Shown: positions 45,313 through 62,163 of the stretch, one piece after another | Numbering within the stretch: the first letter of the stretch is position 1 | Layout of the letters: each line of letters begins with the position of its first letter | Source: Colwellia sp. 20A7 | Lineage (GTDB): Bacteria > Pseudomonadota > Gammaproteobacteria > Enterobacterales > Alteromonadaceae | DNA: 64,000 nt | Reading direction: 5' to 3' | NCBI RefSeq assembly: GCF_009832865.1 | Contig: NZ_CP047130.1 | Location: forward strand, 3,286,001 to 3,350,000 | Position numbers and translations under genes: made by a program | The notes under the pieces: model-generated | Told to the model about the DNA's origin: nothing | Database searches by the model: none | Seen by the model: the letters and a program-made list of their open reading frames with translations, nothing else

Positions 45313-46524
45313 TTATAAAAGGTTATAGCGCCATTGTATACCTAAGCTAACGATAGAATTAACCTGTGATGACTCATTACTTTCATCTCTCATCCATTCA
45401 GTACGTAGTATAAAGTCAGGGTGAAAAGCATAATGCCAGCCAACACTTAGTCTGTTTGGCTCAAACCCATTATTACTTAAACCAACTTGCTCAATAAATG
45501 TCTCTGTTGTTTGAGAGAATTGGTTATCAGCACTTAATATTTCATATTCGAGATGAAGGCTGTGCTTTTTTCTTTCGACAAAAGCGGCTAAACGATATGA
45601 GTTTTGAACTGCATCCATATACGCACTTTGTGTAGTTGTAAAAATTTGACCATCTACTTGTGCTTGAATCCATTCAAATTCACCATGAAAACGCCATTGG
45701 TCATATGCCCATGTACCATCTAAATACATACCTGAACTTAAGGTATCACCCGTAAAAAAAGATTCAACTACATTATCTACCGATACGCCATGGCTGTGCT
45801 CTTCACTATAACGTACATCTTCTCTTTGCTCTGCTTTACCATACATTACCCAAAGTTTAGCTACCGATTGAAAAGATTGTGATTGAAAAGTAAAATGACT
45901 AAACGCCGATATGCTGCCATCACCAGAAGTAGCAGGAAAATTATCACCACTAAATAGCTCAACACCTAACTTATAACTTGAATTTAACTCATCAATTGAA
46001 TTCATTAAAGCAAGCCGCGCGCCGACATCAGTAAAATGGCGTCCAAATAACATATCTGCAGATAATGGAGCTTGACTAAAAATATCGGTAGCCGAATGAT
46101 AATTAACAGTATCGGTTACCTCGGTTGAAATCTTGCCTACTTCAATTTGAAACATTTGCTGTGCAAATTGAAATTCTGTGCCAAACCAAAGACTTTCTAA
46201 TTCAAGGCTATTTTCACCACTGTGGCTATGCGCACTTAATTTGGCGGCAACATAGTATTCTTTATTTAGGTTCATGTACCCCTGCAGTTGTGCATCATCT
46301 AAGCTTGCACCTTCTTCTGCAGGTACTGCTTCACCACCAACTAAAAAACCTTGCGGTTGCCATACTTCACCGCTCTCTACTATTTGGTTGTTACGATAAG
46401 TTATAGCAGCCAAAACTTTAATTGAGTCCTTCTCAGACAAAGAAACTTTTTGGTGAGCCATTGCTGGTTGATAAACAATAGAAAGTAAAGATAATAGCCA
46501 TATTGGCTTAATACGCTTAAGCAT
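45313..46524 (-). CDS. Outer-membrane beta-barrel protein of unknown function, linked to MbnP/MbnH
   Basis: The 403-aa protein has a signal peptide (cleavage after AMA in PAMAHQK) and a mature part made of alternating amphipathic strands, ending ...VSLGIQWRYNLL, as in an outer-membrane barrel. Two histidine-rich spots (KLSAHSHSGENS and SEEHSHGVSVD) could bind metal. I do not recognise a named family; it looks like a porin or a channel of the alginate/OprP-like size class. It is the last gene after mbnP and mbnH homologues and overlaps the mbnH-like frame by 124 nt; its own Shine-Dalgarno (GAGG) is strong. Link to metal uptake is inference. Confidence 0.75.
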   Translation of the reverse strand: MLKRIKPIWLLSLLSIVYQPAMAHQKVSLSEKDSIKVLAAITYRNNQIVESGEVWQPQGFLVGGEAVPAEEGASLDDAQLQGYMNLNKEYYVAAKLSAHSHSGENSLELESLWFGTEFQFAQQMFQIEVGKISTEVTDTVNYHSATDIFSQAPLSADMLFGRHFTDVGARLALMNSIDELNSSYKLGVELFSGDNFPATSGDGSISAFSHFTFQSQSFQSVAKLWVMYGKAEQREDVRYSEEHSHGVSVDNVVESFFTGDTLSSGMYLDGTWAYDQWRFHGEFEWIQAQVDGQIFTTTQSAYMDAVQNSYRLAAFVERKKHSLHLEYEILSADNQFSQTTETFIEQVGLSNNGFEPNRLSVGWHYAFHPDFILRTEWMRDESNESSQVNSIVSLGIQWRYNLL

Positions 46525-47759
46525 TGATTTTCCTCATGCGGATTCGAAAATTTTTCGTTATTAATAAAATCATAATCAGAAAGTGACTCTAAAAAAGAGA
46601 CTACAGCGTCAATTTCTTCATCTGTAGCTGAAAAGCCAAGTATCAGGGCTGATTTATAAGGGCTATTTTTTCCATCCCCCGCGTTAACACCATATTCTGT
46701 CAATGTTCCACCTCTGGCATAATGCTCAACAACCTCGCGTAAAGTACCGATACTGCCATCGTGCATATAAGGTGCTGTAAACTCTATATTTCGTAATGAC
46801 GGTGGCCTAAATTTACCTTTGTCTGTCGGATCAGACGATAAATCAAAGATTCCCTGATCTTCTACGGGATAGCTCCCATCAGAATTTACGTTGTACAAAC
46901 CGTTATTAAAAAATGGAAATAAAAGTGCATCATTCAACGTATTCGCATCTCTATATGACACAGTAAAGTTAATACCTGTATGACAGTGAAAACACTCAAA
47001 TTTTTCACCATTAAATAAACTAAAACCTTGTTTTTGCTGGGCGGTTAATGCTTCTTTATCACCTAATAAATATTCATCGTAAGGACTCTTAGCACTGATC
47101 ATCGTTCGCACAAAGCTTGCCAATGAAAAAATAACTTTATTCATGGTTGCGCCTGAATCACTATCAGGAAAAGCAGCTTCAAACATCTCTTGATACTTCT
47201 CATCGTTATTAAAACGGCTTAATACGGTATCAAGTTCAGCATCAGTAACCCCTAACTCAATAGGATCATCGGCACGAATTGGTACATTTAATTGATCTTC
47301 TAACTCAAAAAAAGTGTCATTACTCCAAGTAAATGTTGCGTTATATGCCGCGTTACTTAACCCTTGACTGTTACGCACTAAAGCATGCCCAGTTGATCCT
47401 ATTGGCGTACTAATGCCATCGGCAAAGGCGTTAGATTGGAAGTGACAAGAACCACAAGACTGAGTTTGGTTAGCGGATAACTGCTTGTCGTAGAATAAAA
47501 AACGACCCAGAGTGATTTTTTCTTTGGTGAGAGCATTAAACTCAGGAATAGCCGGTAACGGCATATGCTCAGGCAAGTCTAATAGCGTACGTAAGTCTTG
47601 TTCTGTTTCAGTTGAATTAACTGTTGTAGTAGAAGATACATTACAACCAGAGACAAAAAATAGCACGAATAATGAAAACGGTAAGAACATGAAACTCAAT
47701 GAAGAATCAACTTCACTGAGTTTATGCAACGTTAACCGACGCAGATGTCTAAATAGCAT
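46401..47759 (-). CDS. Di-heme enzyme of the MbnH/MauG/cytochrome c peroxidase superfamily
   Basis: The protein carries two heme c sites, CGSCH (102-106) and CFHCH (256-260), plus APYMHDGSIGTLREVVEHY, typical of MauG-like enzymes. A hydrophobic stretch (about 24-37) ends in a lipobox-like VSGC, so it is probably a periplasmic lipoprotein. It lies 4 nt after an MbnP-type gene, which points to MbnH: that di-heme enzyme oxidises a tryptophan of MbnP to kynurenine for copper binding. The last 40 residues run 124 nt into the barrel gene and look unlike the family, so the true stop may have been lost by a frameshift or mutation. An internal start at residue 24 is possible. Confidence 0.85.
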   Translation of the reverse strand: MLFRHLRRLTLHKLSEVDSSLSFMFLPFSLFVLFFVSGCNVSSTTTVNSTETEQDLRTLLDLPEHMPLPAIPEFNALTKEKITLGRFLFYDKQLSANQTQSCGSCHFQSNAFADGISTPIGSTGHALVRNSQGLSNAAYNATFTWSNDTFFELEDQLNVPIRADDPIELGVTDAELDTVLSRFNNDEKYQEMFEAAFPDSDSGATMNKVIFSLASFVRTMISAKSPYDEYLLGDKEALTAQQKQGFSLFNGEKFECFHCHTGINFTVSYRDANTLNDALLFPFFNNGLYNVNSDGSYPVEDQGIFDLSSDPTDKGKFRPPSLRNIEFTAPYMHDGSIGTLREVVEHYARGGTLTEYGVNAGDGKNSPYKSALILGFSATDEEIDAVVSFLESLSDYDFINNEKFSNPHEENQCLSVLSQYGYYLYFLLFINQQWLTKKFLCLRRTQLKFWLL

Positions 47760-47763
47760 TTAC

Positions 47764-48726
47764 TTATTCTTTAATAAAAACAAGATTTGCATCAGCATCA
47801 GCACTACCATCAGTAATGTCTAACCCAAAATTTTCAAAAAGAGCAGCACAATCTGTTTGCATAGGGTTAGAATGACAAGATACTGTCGGCGTTACTTCAT
47901 CACCTTTTGCAGCAAATTTAACATTATTTAACATTGCATCAATATCAAGTACAACAACGTCGTTAACAGGATTAAAGTTATCAAGAGTCACTTTAGGCGT
48001 ATTCACAAAATCACAGGTATCTTTCTCTTCTAAAGCAAGTAAACCATCACCGCCGCAATCTCGACTACCTAAATGTATAAGACCATTGCCTTGAACTTCT
48101 TCAGTATTTTCAATAGTAAAATTCATCACAAAATGACGGTAACCACTTGCCCAAGACCAATATAATTCATTTAATGGTGTTGGCGCATCCTCTTGCGTGT
48201 TGGTCGCAATAACATCTTTCATAACAGCTTGTGGTACACCCACATCAAAACTAACGCTATTGACAGTACCAGTGCCACCAATAATAGTTCCACTAATACC
48301 CGTATTAGTACGCTCTGTACCACCTAAAGCATCATCTGTACATGCACCAGCGGTATTGCTAGTTAGATCAATTAAACCAACAAACCCTTGTTCGCTATGA
48401 CGTTGAAAGTCATTAGCGTCTAATTCAACACTAACCTCTTCGTTATTTTCATTATAGAATTTAAGATTACTTACATAAAACCGTAAATCGCTTACTGAAA
48501 TAGCATGTAATTCTTCAGTACCAAATTGGTTGTGGTTAGTATCACAGGCCACCGTTTCACCAGCACTTTTGGCTGTAAAATCAAGAGTAAAGGACGTATT
48601 TTCTTCAGTTGGCGTACCTGCATCAATAGTACTTTCACTACTAGACCCACAACCTGCTAATAGCACTACTGCTGCAAAGGTTAATGAGAAAGGAGATTTA
48701 ATACCAGAAATAAAGCGTGTAAACAT
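47764..48726 (-). CDS. MbnP-family copper-binding periplasmic lipoprotein
   Basis: The family motif LYWSWASGYRHFVMNF is clear; its W-x-W pair includes the tryptophan that MbnH converts to kynurenine in the characterised MbnP of methanotrophs. LRFYVSNLKFY and several cysteines (in TVACDTN, GACTDD, SRDCGG, TVSCHSN) also fit the family. The signal peptide ends in lipobox LAGC. The ATG at 48741 is in frame, but ATG 48726 (MFTRFISG) has GGAA upstream and gives a normal signal peptide. It is first in the operon with the di-heme enzyme and barrel. The family assignment is strong; copper as ligand is from relatives. Confidence 0.87.
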   Translation of the reverse strand: MFTRFISGIKSPFSLTFAAVVLLAGCGSSSESTIDAGTPTEENTSFTLDFTAKSAGETVACDTNHNQFGTEELHAISVSDLRFYVSNLKFYNENNEEVSVELDANDFQRHSEQGFVGLIDLTSNTAGACTDDALGGTERTNTGISGTIIGGTGTVNSVSFDVGVPQAVMKDVIATNTQEDAPTPLNELYWSWASGYRHFVMNFTIENTEEVQGNGLIHLGSRDCGGDGLLALEEKDTCDFVNTPKVTLDNFNPVNDVVVLDIDAMLNNVKFAAKGDEVTPTVSCHSNPMQTDCAALFENFGLDITDGSADADANLVFIKE

Positions 48727-48791
48727 TATCGTAAGTTCCATGAATAATAAGAATTACGTCATTATAGATACACAACCTTTAATAAAAGAGT

Positions 48792-48802
48792 GACAAATTG
48801 TC
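48792..48802. promoter_or_regulatory. Palindromic candidate operator upstream of mbnP-like gene
   Basis: GACAAATTGTC is a perfect 11-bp palindrome, extended by GTG/CAC outside it with a spacing offset. It lies about 65 bp before the start codon, just upstream of a TATAAT (minus strand, 48761-48766) that may be the -10 element. The regulator is unknown. Confidence 0.35.
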
Positions 48803-48928
48803 GCACTTCTGAAGAAAGTTCTATTTTGCAATAATGTAAGTTAAGTTATTGGCAGGTTTAATTATTAAATTACTCAAAGCAGGCGCTAAGAGAAAAATCT
48901 TCCAAGGCAAAAACTCGATAAAATGATT

Positions 48929-48985: not shown

Positions 48986-49573
48986 CTATTTTAATTTATC
49001 ATGTTGTATTATAAATAGGCTTTTGTTGGGTATTTCAGTGAATTCAACAAGCTTAGTTTGGTTTTTTTCGTAACCTTTCGTTAAATAAACGACCCAATAT
49101 TCAACATGAGGTGACTCCCACTTTTTTATAAAAGCGACCCCTATTTCATCTTGTTCTTTATAAAAATCAATATCACCTAATAAATGAGTTCGATGAAGTT
49201 CAGATCTTTTAAAGGCATCCCATACATCTTCAGCATCAGAGTACCCTCCGGCAATAGCCTCAACTTGATTGCTATTAAAATCATAACCATAATAGTTTGG
49301 GAGTTTATAGCCTACGTTTCGTAAACGTGAGTTTGGTCCTCCTTCAAGATTATGTACAACCAAACCTAACTCAGACATTTTTTTAGCTTTAGCCTCAGCC
49401 GCTACAGTAAGCAACCTATTACAACGGATAGATATTCGCTTTTGCTCATTATCACTTTTAATTAATTTAACTAAAGCCCTTGCTTCTTTATTGTTGCCGC
49501 ATTTATCAGGTTCAATAGCTGAAACGAATACAGGAAAAAAAAGAAATATGATTATAAAATGCAATTTTGACAT
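48986..49573 (-). CDS. Secreted CAP-domain (SCP/PR1-like) protein
   Basis: The 195-aa protein has a signal peptide (LHFIIIFLFFPVFVSAIEP). The CAP fold is visible in LLTVAAEAKAKKMSELGLVVHN (first conserved histidine), EAIAGGYSDAEDVWDAFKRSELHRTHLLG (conserved Glu and second His), and IGVAFIKKW...EYWVVYLTKG. This set resembles bacterial CAP proteins of the YkwD type, whose role is mostly unknown. Cysteines at the N-terminal part (DKCGNN, IRCNR) could form a disulfide. It stands alone between two other gene blocks. Confidence 0.85.
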   Translation of the reverse strand: MSKLHFIIIFLFFPVFVSAIEPDKCGNNKEARALVKLIKSDNEQKRISIRCNRLLTVAAEAKAKKMSELGLVVHNLEGGPNSRLRNVGYKLPNYYGYDFNSNQVEAIAGGYSDAEDVWDAFKRSELHRTHLLGDIDFYKEQDEIGVAFIKKWESPHVEYWVVYLTKGYEKNQTKLVEFTEIPNKSLFIIQHDKLK

Positions 49574-58278: not shown

Positions 58279-61200
58279 TTAAGACTCTTCCAATAGCTTT
58301 TTAGCTTCTTCTTGCTGCTGCGTTGTGCCCAACTTGATAACTTCGTTCAAAATGACTTGAGCATTATCCTCGTCACCTATTTCAAGATAGACTTTAGCTA
58401 AATCAAGTTTAGCCGCCATACCACTCTCATCAATATCAACATCAATTAAATTAACATCACGAGTAAATTCAGGGAATTCATTCAATCCAACATCTATATT
58501 GGCTTTTTCATAAGGTTCGTCAAAGCTAACTTCTCCTTGGCTATCTGAGAGTAATGAGTCAACAGAAACAAAGTTATCTTCTTTATTATCATTACTAGCA
58601 AGGCTCTCTGACCCTGTACTATCTTTCTGTGTACTATCATGAGAGTTGAAGTTGTCAAAATCTTCTAATGTAATTTTATCGCTATCATCAGAGTTTTGAT
58701 TAAAATTAGCACTCTGATTAGCAACACTAGACTCTTCTTCAATATTAGCTAGAAGCTCATCAAAATTTAAATTATTTAACTCTTTAATATCATTTATTTC
58801 AGTGGCTTCTGTTACTTTAGTATCACTATCTTTGTCATTATCATTTAATAAATCAGCTAATACATTCTGATCTGAAAAGTCTGGGGATAATTCAATAGCA
58901 TGTTCACTATCTTCCAATAGCTCTTTCAGTGCTTGCTCATCAAAAGCTTCTGAAACTAAGTCATCACCAATATCAAGTTCTTCATCAACTGGGATTTCAC
59001 TTGAGCGCTCCATGTCGGCAATTAGGTCATCAATATCAAAGCCGTCATCATCGATTAACTCATCATCGATTTCATCGTCCGTGCTTTCGCTTAATTGTTC
59101 CATGTCAGCAATTAAATCATCAATGCCAAGTTCTTCATCATCAATTAATTCAGATTCATCGACAAGACCTTCACTTGACTGTTCCATGTCAGCAATTAAA
59201 TCATCAATATCAAGTTCTTCATCATCAATTAATTCAGATTCATCAACAGGACCTTCACTTGACTGTTCCGTGTTAGCAATTAAATCATCAATACCAAGTT
59301 TTTCATCATCAATTAATTCAGATTCATCAACAGAGCCTTCACTTAACTGTTCCGTGTTAGCAATTAAATCATCAATACCAAGTTTTTCATCATCAATTAA
59401 TTCAGATTCATCAACAGGGCCTTCACTTGACTGTTCCGTGTCAGCAATTAAATCATCAATACCAAGTTTTTCATCATCAATTAATTCAGATTCATCAACA
59501 GGACCTTCACTTGACTGTTCCGTGTCAGCAATTAAATCATCAATACCAAGTTTTTCATCATCAATGACATCACTATCTGATTGTGTCGGTTCAGATTCAT
59601 TTAATTCCGGTTCACTCAAATCAGAGTCGTCTTCTGATGATTTATCCAAAATGTCACTAAAATCAGTAGATAATAACGGCGAAATATATTCTTCAGTTAA
59701 ACTTTCAATTTTAGCCTTATTTTCATTGATATCAGATTCATCAATAGCCGCTTGGTCATTACTTTCGTCTGCTGGCACTTCTTTATCATTTAAAGCGGAC
59801 GTTTCATCATTAGTATTCCCACCGATAGAATCTAACAAAGCATCAATATCATCTGGATCGGTTACTTCAGACTCTGATGGCTCTTCGGTAACAGTATCAT
59901 CACTAGTATCCGCACCAATAGAATCTAACAAGGCATCAATATCATCTGGATCGGTTACTTCAGACTCTGACGCCTCTTCGGTAACAGTATCATCACTAGT
60001 ATCCGCACCAATAGAATCTAACAAGGCATCAATATCATCTGGATCGGTTACTTCAGATTCTGATGCCTCTTCTGTCACAGCATCATCATTAGTATCCACA
60101 CCAATAGAATCTAACAAGGCATCAATATCGTCTGGATCGGTTATTTCAGATTCTGATGCCTCTTCTGTCACAGCATCATCATTAGTATCCACACCAATAG
60201 AATCTAACAAGGCATCAATATCGTCTGGATCGGTTATTTCAGATTCTGATACCTCTTCTGTCACAGCATCATCATTAGTATCCACACCAATAGAATCTAA
60301 CAAGGCATCAATATCGTCTGGATCGGTTATTTCAGATTCTGATGCCTCTTCTGTCACAGCATCATCATTAGTATCCACACCAATAGAATCTAACAGGGCA
60401 TCAATATCGTCTGGATCCGTTACTTCAGACTCTGACGGCTCTTCTGTAACACTATCATCACTAGTATCCGAACCAATAGAATCTAACAAGGCATCAATAT
60501 CATCAGGATCCGTTACTTCAGACTCTGACGGCTCTTCTGTAACAATATCATCACTAGTATCCGCGCCAATCGAATCTAACAAGGCATCAATATCGTCTGG
60601 ATCGGTTACTGCAGACTCTGATGCTTCTTCAGAAGTGACTGACGTTTCTTTATCTAATACTAAGTCATCTTCTTCCAGATCATTTGACTCAAGAGCAAGT
60701 CCACCTAAAAGATCATCTAAATCACTTTGATCCAATTCATTATTTACTAAGACATCATCTTCTTGGGCGTCTTCTTTATCGTCTTCGTTCGTCTCCAACA
60801 AAGAATCAAGAGCAGATTGATCTAATTCTCCGCCTTCAAGTAAAGCTGAGTCATCAACTTCTTGGTCAAGTATGATGTCATCTAAATCGTCCAAATCATC
60901 TAAGTCGTCTAAATCATTTAATTCATCATCATCCAGATGTATAACATCACTCTCATCAGCCTCGAGGAGATCTATAGACAAATCGTCATCTAGTAATAGT
61001 TCATCATCTAATGATGAACTATCATCTGATGACAATTCATCATCTAGTAATAATTCATCATCTAGTGATAATTCGTCATCTAGTGATAATTCGTCATCTA
61101 ATGATAATTCGTCATCTAATGATAATTCATCATCTAGTGATAATTCTTCAGGTGCTGAAACTTCTTCAGTTACCTTTTCAGGTTTAGTTTTTTCTTTTAA

Positions 61201-62163
61201 AGAAGCTTTTGGAGAAGCTTTTATAGTCGCCGGTTCTTTTTTCCTACGTTTAAGAATAAACGCTGCCACAATTAAGATTAAAATGGCCGGTAATGTCGCC
61301 ATTAATACTACAAACCATTGACTAGTAAATATATTATCATCTAATTTAGCTTGTTCTTTTTCTAGCAGTAACTCTTCTTCTCTCGCTTGTGCTTTTGCAA
61401 GTAACGCCTGCTGCAATTGAATCATATCATCCATTTGTAGCTTAATTTCTTTACTTTTAGCGACCTCTGCTTGCATTGTGTCTAGTTGATCATTAAAAGA
61501 TGATAAACGTTGACGTAAAGCTTCGTTCTCTTTTAACAATGCCTGTAAGCCACCAATAGAATCCAAAATATCATTTTGAATATTTTCTAAACGTACTTGT
61601 TGTTCATTATCTATTTTTTCTAATTGATCATTTAGCTCAACTTTGACTGTGTCTAAATCTTGTTTATTAACATTTTGAGTGGCTAATTTTGACGCTGAGG
61701 TCGATTTTCTAGGTGAGTTACTTTTCCAAGCTTGCTCGTCTTCACTAGATTTTTTCTTTGCCGCACGAGTATCGACTAACATCATATATTCAAAAGAGGG
61801 TATTTTTAAATATTCACCATTAACTAAAAGGTTAAGATTACCATCAACAAAGGCATTAGGATTAGCTTGATATAAGGCTTGCATCACTTGATAAACACTT
61901 AAGCGATTATCAGGTCGAACGGTTAACGCTATATTCCATAGCGTATCACTTTTATTTATCGGGCCATAACGCTCAAAACGCAAAACATCCGAGCCTTTGG
62001 GGCCTAACATACGAACGCCAGGTCTTTCTGATAAGGCTTCTTGAGCAAAAGTAGGGAAACCAATAACGGATACACTAGTAATGATAATGCTAGCGCTTAA
62101 TATACTAGCTATTGATATGCTAAGAACAACCTGCCGTAGGCACAGGTGTAATAATTTTGGCAT
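58279..62163 (-). CDS. fimV: FimV-type peptidoglycan-binding and scaffold protein with large acidic repeat arrays
   Basis: FimV is a polar inner-membrane hub for type IV pili, chemosensing and cAMP signalling in relatives. Order in the 1294 aa: signal peptide (1-40), FimV N-terminal plus LysM-like region (RFERYGPINKSDTLWNIALTV, about 62-118), coiled coil (about 165-275), membrane segment (about 281-302), very acidic cytoplasmic part, and the C-terminal FimV/TPR domain (about 1225-1294, DLAKVYLEIGDEDNAQVILNEV). The acidic part holds three repeat arrays: a hexapeptide SLDDEL (about 340-390), nine 31-residue units with DPDDIDALLDSIG (about 517-781) and seven units of about 28 residues with IDDLIAD (about 864-1058). 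Gene order asd-fimV-truA confirms the name. Confidence 0.95.
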   Translation of the reverse strand: MPKLLHLCLRQVVLSISIASILSASIIITSVSVIGFPTFAQEALSERPGVRMLGPKGSDVLRFERYGPINKSDTLWNIALTVRPDNRLSVYQVMQALYQANPNAFVDGNLNLLVNGEYLKIPSFEYMMLVDTRAAKKKSSEDEQAWKSNSPRKSTSASKLATQNVNKQDLDTVKVELNDQLEKIDNEQQVRLENIQNDILDSIGGLQALLKENEALRQRLSSFNDQLDTMQAEVAKSKEIKLQMDDMIQLQQALLAKAQAREEELLLEKEQAKLDDNIFTSQWFVVLMATLPAILILIVAAFILKRRKKEPATIKASPKASLKEKTKPEKVTEEVSAPEELSLDDELSLDDELSLDDELSLDDELSLDDELLLDDELSSDDSSSLDDELLLDDDLSIDLLEADESDVIHLDDDELNDLDDLDDLDDLDDIILDQEVDDSALLEGGELDQSALDSLLETNEDDKEDAQEDDVLVNNELDQSDLDDLLGGLALESNDLEEDDLVLDKETSVTSEEASESAVTDPDDIDALLDSIGADTSDDIVTEEPSESEVTDPDDIDALLDSIGSDTSDDSVTEEPSESEVTDPDDIDALLDSIGVDTNDDAVTEEASESEITDPDDIDALLDSIGVDTNDDAVTEEVSESEITDPDDIDALLDSIGVDTNDDAVTEEASESEITDPDDIDALLDSIGVDTNDDAVTEEASESEVTDPDDIDALLDSIGADTSDDTVTEEASESEVTDPDDIDALLDSIGADTSDDTVTEEPSESEVTDPDDIDALLDSIGGNTNDETSALNDKEVPADESNDQAAIDESDINENKAKIESLTEEYISPLLSTDFSDILDKSSEDDSDLSEPELNESEPTQSDSDVIDDEKLGIDDLIADTEQSSEGPVDESELIDDEKLGIDDLIADTEQSSEGPVDESELIDDEKLGIDDLIANTEQLSEGSVDESELIDDEKLGIDDLIANTEQSSEGPVDESELIDDEELDIDDLIADMEQSSEGLVDESELIDDEELGIDDLIADMEQLSESTDDEIDDELIDDDGFDIDDLIADMERSSEIPVDEELDIGDDLVSEAFDEQALKELLEDSEHAIELSPDFSDQNVLADLLNDNDKDSDTKVTEATEINDIKELNNLNFDELLANIEEESSVANQSANFNQNSDDSDKITLEDFDNFNSHDSTQKDSTGSESLASNDNKEDNFVSVDSLLSDSQGEVSFDEPYEKANIDVGLNEFPEFTRDVNLIDVDIDESGMAAKLDLAKVYLEIGDEDNAQVILNEVIKLGTTQQQEEAKKLLEES
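58990..59570 (-). repeat. Tandem 84-bp repeats in fimV (IDDLIAD units)
   Basis: Seven units of about 84 bp encode ELIDDEKLGIDDLIADTEQ-type sequence. The middle ones are nearly identical in DNA; the outer ones diverge, with irregular spacing at the distal end. Confidence 0.85.
59818..60613 (-). repeat. Tandem 93-bp repeats in fimV (DPDDIDALLDSIG units)
   Basis: Nine units with an exact 93-bp period. Units 3 to 6 are almost identical in DNA, a sign of recent duplication or conversion. The period is a multiple of three, so copy-number changes keep the frame. Confidence 0.9.
60990..61146 (-). repeat. 18-bp repeats in fimV (SLDDEL units)
   Basis: Seven or so copies of an 18-bp unit encode SLDDEL and variants just after the membrane segment. 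A separate short LDD run lies at about 60880-60920. Confidence 0.8.

Follow-up and report, generated by a model that had tools for sequence, protein, structure and literature searches.

An MbnP-MbnH pair with a predicted porin in Colwellia: a candidate outer-membrane module for copper acquisition

Introduction

The window analysed here is a stretch of 64,000 nucleotides from the genome of Colwellia sp. 20A7 (contig NZ_CP047130.1, positions 3,286,001 to 3,350,000). On its minus strand lie, adjacent and in this order, the genes of an MbnP-family lipoprotein, an MbnH-family di-heme enzyme and an outer-membrane barrel. At somewhat better than even odds (a probability of about 0.55), these three genes form one outer-membrane copper-acquisition module for respiration. 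This reading is carried by the membership of the first two proteins in their families, by the linkage of the barrel gene to them across genera, by the split of gene partners on the barrel tree, by a conserved palindrome upstream of the operon, by the predicted porin fold of the barrel and by the joint absence, in one group of relatives, of MbnH and of the W-x-W motif of MbnP.

The passage of copper across the outer membrane under scarcity is poorly known. Only a few outer-membrane transporters specific for copper have been identified, all of them dependent on TonB; passive diffusion through porins, described as the principal path of Cu(II), probably does not suffice when copper is limiting (PMC12914433). 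If the present reading is true, the answer here would be a different one: a porin connected with a copper-site lipoprotein through gene order, descent and a shared promoter element. The operon also gives MbnP and MbnH, once called mysterious partners (PMC3621798), a transport partner and a likely regulator, and the existence of MbnP with and without MbnH provides a natural test set that can be checked directly.

The three-gene locus

The genes and the junction between the last two are placed as follows:

47764..48741, minus strand: MbnP-family lipoprotein of the W-x-W family, 325 residues, lipobox Cys31
46401..47759, minus strand: MbnH-family di-heme enzyme, 452 residues, family match ending at residue 407
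45313..46524, minus strand: predicted 16-strand outer-membrane porin of the MbnPH-linked clade, 403 residues
46401..46524, minus strand: stretch in which the extended MbnH frame and the first part of the barrel gene overlap; the frame of Colwellia sp. C2M11 ends at the junction

An initial annotation, made from the sequence of the window, had described the locus correctly, except that its start for the MbnP gene (48726) is the second ATG, the longest frame beginning at 48741. The profile searches that it proposed assigned MbnP and MbnH to their families, and left the barrel without a Pfam, NCBIfam or PHROG family at E<=1.

MbnP matches PF20243 (E 8.5e-32; 111 bits, cut-off 27) and TIGR04052 (226.5 bits, cut-off 140), a family that NCBIfam names copper-binding, and its best solved match in the PDB is 7l6g (E 9e-12). 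Together with the motif W195-S-W197 these matches bear out the lipoprotein as first described. The di-heme enzyme reaches 462.9 bits against TIGR04039 (cut-off 362.85) and carries the two CxxCH sites that had been noticed:

47442..47456, minus strand: first heme site, C102-x-x-C105-H106, each residue at least 95% conserved among 51 MbnH
46980..46994, minus strand: second heme site, C256-x-x-C259-H260, each residue at least 95% conserved among 51 MbnH

The initial annotation had made its reading depend on the enzyme not being an ordinary cytochrome c peroxidase. That assignment and MauG are both ruled out by the family cut-offs (the MauG model TIGR03791 gives 151.7 bits and does not reach its cut-off of 443.85), by the best solved match (6e1c, E 2.6e-91, against E 1.7e-34 for the best cytochrome c peroxidase) and by a gap between 354 and 273 bits in the MbnH-model scores across 295 genomes of the order. 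The lipobox cysteine is present in 56 of 56 aligned MbnP and in 46 of 51 aligned MbnH, and both proteins are therefore probably membrane-anchored.

Compared with its nearest relative, the MbnH frame has 41 more residues and shares 124 bases with the barrel gene, since the codon at which the relative stops at the junction is not a stop in Colwellia sp. 20A7. Either the stop was genuinely lost or the sequence contains an error; intact junctions occur among relatives.

Linkage of the barrel to MbnP and MbnH

Linkage was followed in genome samples of the order (295), the class (369) and the genus (39). MbnP occurs in 34 of the 295 genomes of the order, and among the 34 loci (window included) MbnH lies within the fetched stretch in 28 and the barrel directly follows MbnH in six, which supplies the count of the triplet that had been proposed. 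The barrel search matched 56 genomes of the order, seven at 295.9 bits or more and the rest at 132.6 bits or less. Six of the seven high-scoring barrels adjoin an intact MbnP-MbnH pair and the seventh (genome G037, locus L101) an MbnH remnant. At L101 (G037:C1:38000-53000) the barrel and a PCuAC-like gene, named by eye, stand beside a C-terminal MbnH fragment, and another contig of this genome carries a complete MbnP-MbnH pair of another type.

In the class 91 genomes matched, with two high scores, the window and G368, where the barrel again follows MbnP-MbnH. MbnP matches were found in 14 of the 369 genomes (one, of 27.7 bits in G535, was left out of further counts). A pattern search of named genomes gave 14 loci, 12 of them with MbnP, MbnH and barrel and two of a type with a ZnuA-like partner described below. 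The 12 span Colwellia, Aliiglaciecola, Paraglaciecola, Psychrosphaera, Teredinibacter and metagenome-assembled genomes of Hahella and Cellvibrionaceae, with a barrel identity of 32-43% outside Colwellia. In the genus the barrel is found in five of 39 genomes, all five with MbnH (the window and loci L107-L110), so that the system is patchy. The barrel thus adjoins mbnP and mbnH in other genomes, a conservation of linkage on which the annotation had also made its reading depend.

A partner split on the barrel tree

The weaker relatives of the barrel have another neighbour. All those examined adjoin a ZnuA-type gene, 23 of 23 in the order and 28 of 28 in the class, the sample covering 23 of the 49 order genomes with weaker matches only and 28 of 89 in the class, plus extra stretches. 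The same holds for barrels L119, L102-L106 and L120, some of which are the same genes as in the other counts. Pfam searches on one such locus found PF01297 (ZnuA) and then PF00950 in the next gene, the ABC-3 permease, and returned no Pfam or NCBIfam name for the porin of one searched locus. One genome, G001, has both barrel kinds.

On a tree of 79 barrels, 19 rows linked to MbnP-MbnH (MbnPH-linked) and 54 ZnuA-linked rows are separated by one change with 100/99 support. Six rows are unlabelled, L163 and L037 form long branches, and duplicates of larger loci were skipped. Labels were set by locus, and the ZnuA-linked rows include six whose proteins seeded the ZnuA profile (one of these six loci was confirmed by Pfam); the gene neighbours of P0001-P0017 were taken in only where a locus of the same contig had been fetched. 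The barrel of the window has no adjacent ZnuA-type gene and is placed outside the ZnuA-linked clade. As the tree is unrooted, it is the wider spread of the zinc type that suggests that it came first. The two clades belong to one barrel family and have His143 and Glu110 in common, and an H-x-H loop is found in 42 of 54 ZnuA-linked barrels; these differ in their partner genes and in lacking a histidine at the aligned mature N-terminus.

Fold and residues of the barrel

An AlphaFold model built on 14 aligned relatives (predicted local distance difference test, pLDDT, 78.7; predicted template-modelling score, pTM, 0.79) has 16 strands, with a long loop of 31 residues (134-164) that joins strands 5 and 6; confidence falls below pLDDT 50 in residues 1-27 and 241-248. 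Foldseek and VIA-align place the model among 16-strand porins (OprP, PorB and OmpF-type matches), the best structural matches by Z being OprP and OprO (Z 26). These phosphate-specific porins, known from solved structures, share 9-10% identity with the barrel and a different substrate is expected. A TonB receptor was considered and rejected, there being no Pfam match at E<=1 and, in the model, 16 strands and no plug domain. Both the predicted porin fold and the coupling of its relatives to ZnuA-type genes strengthen the earlier suggestion of the barrel as a possible pore, and the two histidine-rich spots seen then correspond to H99/H101 and H243/H245:

46453..46455, minus strand: His24 codon, expected N-terminus of the mature barrel (A-M-A precedes; cleavage site judged by eye)
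46222..46230, minus strand: H99-S-H101 codons, end of strand 3; H99 in 19/19 MbnPH-linked and 13/54 ZnuA-linked barrels
46096..46098, minus strand: His143 codon, loop between strands 5 and 6; invariant in 79/79 rows
45790..45798, minus strand: H243-S-H245 codons, loop between strands 9 and 10; H243 in 19/19 MbnPH-linked and 41/54 ZnuA-linked barrels

The loop holding His143 sits where general porins have the eyelet loop L3. A histidine at the position of His24 is found in 18 of 19 MbnPH-linked barrels and in none of the 54 ZnuA-linked ones. An N-terminal histidine is a ligand in several copper proteins, and this residue is a lead, rather than a test, for copper ligation by the barrel. High histidine content was dropped as a sign of copper, as the clades do not differ.

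The W-x-W motif and MbnH

The motif presumed to undergo the conversion of tryptophan to kynurenine lies in the first gene:

48151..48159, minus strand: W195-S-W197 codons; both Trp in 51/51 MbnP with MbnH in the genome

MbnP was compared at 56 loci (L110, on the same contig as L038, was left out; L051, cut by a contig end and with its MbnH on another contig, was counted as having MbnH). Both tryptophans are kept in all 51 MbnP whose genome has MbnH and both are replaced in the five (L061-L065) from genomes without an MbnH above the cut-off. None of the five has MbnH nearby, a genome-wide search at E<=1e-30 was empty in four of the genomes, and the fifth, G121, has only a relative of 207 bits, below the cut-off. 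G031, a sixth MbnP-bearing genome of the same genus, has both MbnH and W-x-W. Since the five form one clade (92/87), their change was probably one event, not five. The joint absence of W-x-W and MbnH fits the motif being the MbnH substrate. In later studies MbnH reportedly makes kynurenine in MbnP, and the Colwellia sp. 20A7 MbnP would be converted likewise. In L061-L065 a conserved protein of about 110 residues (MTEKPFxxSGRNTxIHK) follows the MbnP gene.

MbnP of the barrel loci has a mark of its own, an extra histidine six residues after W197 (17 of 18 barrel loci, none of the 38 others). On the MbnP tree two changes are required to account for the barrel-linked rows, and long branches come together.

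A palindrome and a candidate regulator

A further element common to most barrel loci stands before the first gene:

48789..48805, minus strand: palindrome of the RegA/ActR type, TGCGACAATTTGTCACT, lying about 48 bp before mbnP

The site fits a GCGAC-N5-GTCGC-type layout with one departure from the palindrome. In the form TGCGACA-N4-GTCRC it precedes the first gene in 13 of the 15 main-clade barrel loci; among the 38 other loci two have it upstream of MbnP, at distances of 576 and about 172 bases, and there is no further occurrence in the 697 kb of the loci (57, L110 included). Five random versions of these 697 kb held 0, 0, 0, 1 and 0 palindromes. There is an overlap with the longest frame in L114 and L117; the start of that frame has probably been placed too far upstream. 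Some RegA sites of Rhodobacter, taken from the chromatin immunoprecipitation sites of R. capsulatus used for this comparison, share the layout, for example GCGACCGTTCGTCGC at ccoN and GTGACAATTTGTCCC at cydA (PMC5359404).

RegB- and RegA-like genes neighbour the operon in six of 18 barrel loci and three of 38 other MbnP loci, both models scoring below their cut-offs at these genes. Colwellia sp. 20A7 has one RegA-like protein above the search threshold (155.3 bits), encoded 0.33 Mb from the operon and adjoined by a RegB-like kinase gene (by eye). A RegA-type regulator may bind at the mbnP palindrome. Rhodobacter RegA binds copper (PMC9147068). Copper sensing through the redox cysteine (PMC9147068) was rejected for the proteins seen here, as the last 60 residues of four RegA-like C-termini and of that of the own genome hold no cysteine.

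PCuAC genes lie in five of the 18 barrel loci and none of the 38 other MbnP loci (PF04314 was checked on two). Another copper-related neighbour, a DUF2282 gene, adjoins the barrel of G368. A small upstream frame in L034-L036 and L101 was considered as DUF2946/CruR; two searched gave no such Pfam match, and the identity is not claimed.

Relation to known systems

The pair itself is known. TIGR04052 and TIGR04039, joined in GenProp0940, occur both beside and away from methanobactin clusters (PMC3621798), and a stand-alone pair is thus not new in itself; like the Colwellia locus, it consists of the same two neighbouring families and needs no methanobactin genes. The Colwellia locus adds a dedicated porin as third gene and the RegA-type palindrome. 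The word "porin" occurs 0 times in PMC3621798, and no paper joining MbnP-MbnH to a porin was found in literature searches judged by titles and abstract openings; later MbnH and MbnP papers fell outside that search, and the linkage is not claimed to be unpublished. To our knowledge the combination, the partner split and the regulator site are new, the pair being known and the barrel fold ordinary.

MbnT-like TonB receptors adjoin some isolated pairs (PMC3621798). In the window, as the initial annotation had stated, none was seen by eye among the 46 open reading frames of at least 150 residues, which were not searched by profile. Its statement that no methanobactin genes lie nearby stood for MbnB, the sole PF05114 match in the genome being 0.8 Mb from the operon; the MbnC model gave no match in the genome and was equally silent in the controls. 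The PF05114 gene, beside DUF2282-like and DUF2063-like genes, was rejected as methanobactin MbnB and reads as part of a bufferin cluster (naming by eye). This cluster (L068, G000:C1:2524792-2525604 and flanks), with DUF2282-like, PF05114, DUF2063-like and DoxX-like genes, is probably a bufferin (copper-binding peptide) system, named by eye except for PF05114.

In MopE/SACCP and CorA/CorB of methanotrophs copper is bound by two histidines and kynurenine (PMC3912023; PMC3423442). As proposed here, a kynurenine copper site goes with the gene of a di-heme peroxidase-like partner, and there the genes are copper-repressed; the available parts of both papers describe no porin partner, which the Colwellia locus has. 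CrtA, a TonB-dependent copper importer for respiratory oxidases with PCuAC genes in a few operons (PMC12914433), resembles the proposed module in its role, the import of copper across the outer membrane to supply heme-copper oxidases, and differs in being a TonB-dependent receptor instead of a predicted 16-strand porin with MbnP-MbnH. In Rhizobium etli a porin-like protein for copper transit, RopAe, is in print (PMC6011978). Porin-type copper passage therefore has a precedent. We know of no MbnP-MbnH beside RopAe.

Other partners of the pair

In 17 of the 56 MbnP loci (among L039-L060) the place of the barrel is taken by a divergently encoded choice-of-anchor B protein of about 920 residues. 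The one checked scores 436.9 bits, has Calx-beta and PKD domains and matches GlyGly-CTERM (16.7 bits, cut-off 15.5; E 0.009). After the signal peptide these proteins often begin A-H-x-E-H-D-K, and their gene stands back to back with MbnP-MbnH. Six further loci (L164, L165, L167, L170, L172, L173) encode a barrel-like protein of about 300 residues with the N-terminal motif CxxC-x-GDPT, its end being the barrel-like part; the two that were searched gave no Pfam or NCBIfam match, and a small lipoprotein gene often follows.

The three envelope partners are never found two together in the 56 loci. For the porin (18) and the 920-residue protein (17) zero overlap would have a probability of 0.0003 if they were independent, a figure that common descent makes too small.

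Proposed mechanism and alternatives

Why would an MbnP-MbnH pair be coupled to a porin? The porin may have evolved within a family otherwise coupled to the genes of ZnuA-type ABC (ATP-binding cassette) importers, with MbnP and MbnH as its new partners. Copper, free or weakly chelated, would be drawn inward through the pore past His143, His99 and His243/245 and head for the N-terminal histidine on the periplasmic side of the barrel. MbnP would take it up, one tryptophan of W-x-W, oxidised by MbnH to kynurenine, completing the copper site, and PCuAC-like periplasmic chaperones, encoded in the operon of some relatives, might pass the metal to respiratory oxidases. Expression would be linked with respiration through a redox regulator of the RegB/RegA type at the mbnP palindrome. 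A bolder form of the proposal is tentative, and we would not put even odds on it: a TonB-independent, copper-selective porin would have been derived from a zinc-uptake porin by exchanging the ZnuA-type partner for a kynurenine-bearing MbnP and MbnH, the N-terminal histidine ligand of the barrel being tied to the same step, and MbnP-MbnH would form the common centre of several modules for copper capture, with this porin, the CxxC protein of about 300 residues or the protein of about 920 residues as alternative envelope partners.

A number of observations weigh against the copper-acquisition module. Nothing in the three genes proves copper. Of the 51 MbnP loci with MbnH, 33 lack a barrel of this kind, and the pair thus does not need one. 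Among the 12 named loci, the MbnP frame is broken in L118, which was counted as barrel-linked (L118:3762-4773, Psychrosphaera sp. B3R10; MbnP lies in two frames, and the MbnH, barrel and RegB/RegA-like genes are open). The barrel of L101 is without the N-terminal histidine, and His24 and His243/245 fall in the model parts under pLDDT 50. His101 is present in 33 and His243 in 41 of the 54 ZnuA-linked relatives, so that a histidine-bearing pore is not copper-specific, and histidine content is 3.4% in the MbnPH-linked against 3.7% in the zinc clade. In Colwellia sp. 20A7 the RegB/RegA-like pair and both PCuAC genes lie away from the operon, and RegA-like proteins, at 155-191 bits, fall short of the family cut-off of 250. 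The palindrome was not found in two of the 15 main-clade and three of the three distant barrel loci, and one ZnuA-linked barrel has it too (L088:2437-2453), about 115 bp ahead of the gene, hence both barrel clades may share a regulator in some genomes. Colwellia sp. 20A7 has four sites within one mismatch of a longer form of the palindrome; the mbnP site has one mismatch, and the only exact site lies elsewhere, before a protease-like gene. For CorA, the kynurenine has been called a second-sphere ligand, and copper binding was suggested to persist in an M. alcaliphilum mutant that lacks the di-heme partner (PMC3912023), from which it follows that the di-heme enzyme may not be essential.

Four other explanations compete with the acquisition module. 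Copper buffering or detoxification, in which a kynurenine-bearing MbnP would sequester excess copper while the barrel releases or equilibrates it, is unlikely, although the kynurenine-type site of MopE is described as high-affinity (PMC3423442) and a DUF2282 (PF10048) gene directly follows the operon of G368 (L163:4038-4316) with no PF05114-type gene beside it (by eye). DUF2282 is the family of the copper-binding bufferin precursor, which has a protective role. Yet the closest relatives of the barrel adjoin ABC importer genes, no efflux gene was seen by eye beside the 18 barrel loci, their PCuAC neighbours are delivery chaperones, and CorA is copper-repressible (PMC3912023). A slightly smaller chance goes to a barrel that still carries zinc or another divalent metal, with MbnP-MbnH serving zinc or mixed-metal handling: all 54 relatives outside the MbnPH-linked clade adjoin ZnuA-type genes and both clades have His143 and Glu110, but the partner split is complete with one change on the tree, and the PCuAC neighbours in five of 18 loci, the N-terminal histidine and the NCBIfam name of the MbnP family all speak against it.

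That a general porin merely travels with the pair, on the same transcript and without a common task, is less probable again. The general porin fold, the 33 pairs without a barrel and the patchiness in the genus would suit it, whereas the linkage has been kept across genera at 32-43% barrel identity outside Colwellia, and the clade has residues of its own. Least probable is that the barrel exports MbnP or displays it at the cell surface as a copper binder like CorA or MopE. CorA does lie on the cell surface (PMC3912023), and other MbnP loci pair with the choice-of-anchor B protein and its GlyGly-CTERM match; a 16-strand porin with a long inner loop is, however, by general knowledge too narrow for a folded 30-kDa protein, and the barrel's relatives adjoin importer genes. 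The stand-alone metal-handling system proposed at the outset is supported, then, with copper as its probable metal and import as the probable direction of flow.

Neighbouring features of the window

Just upstream of the operon, positions 48986-49573 encode a secreted protein of 195 residues with a weak YkwD-type match (24.4 bits, cut-off 171), and it recurs upstream of the operon in Colwellia sp. C2M11 (L107). Farther away, at 58279-62163, lies the gene of a FimV-like protein (by eye) of 1294 residues with many near-identical acidic repeats, mirrored on the plus strand by a long antisense open reading frame.

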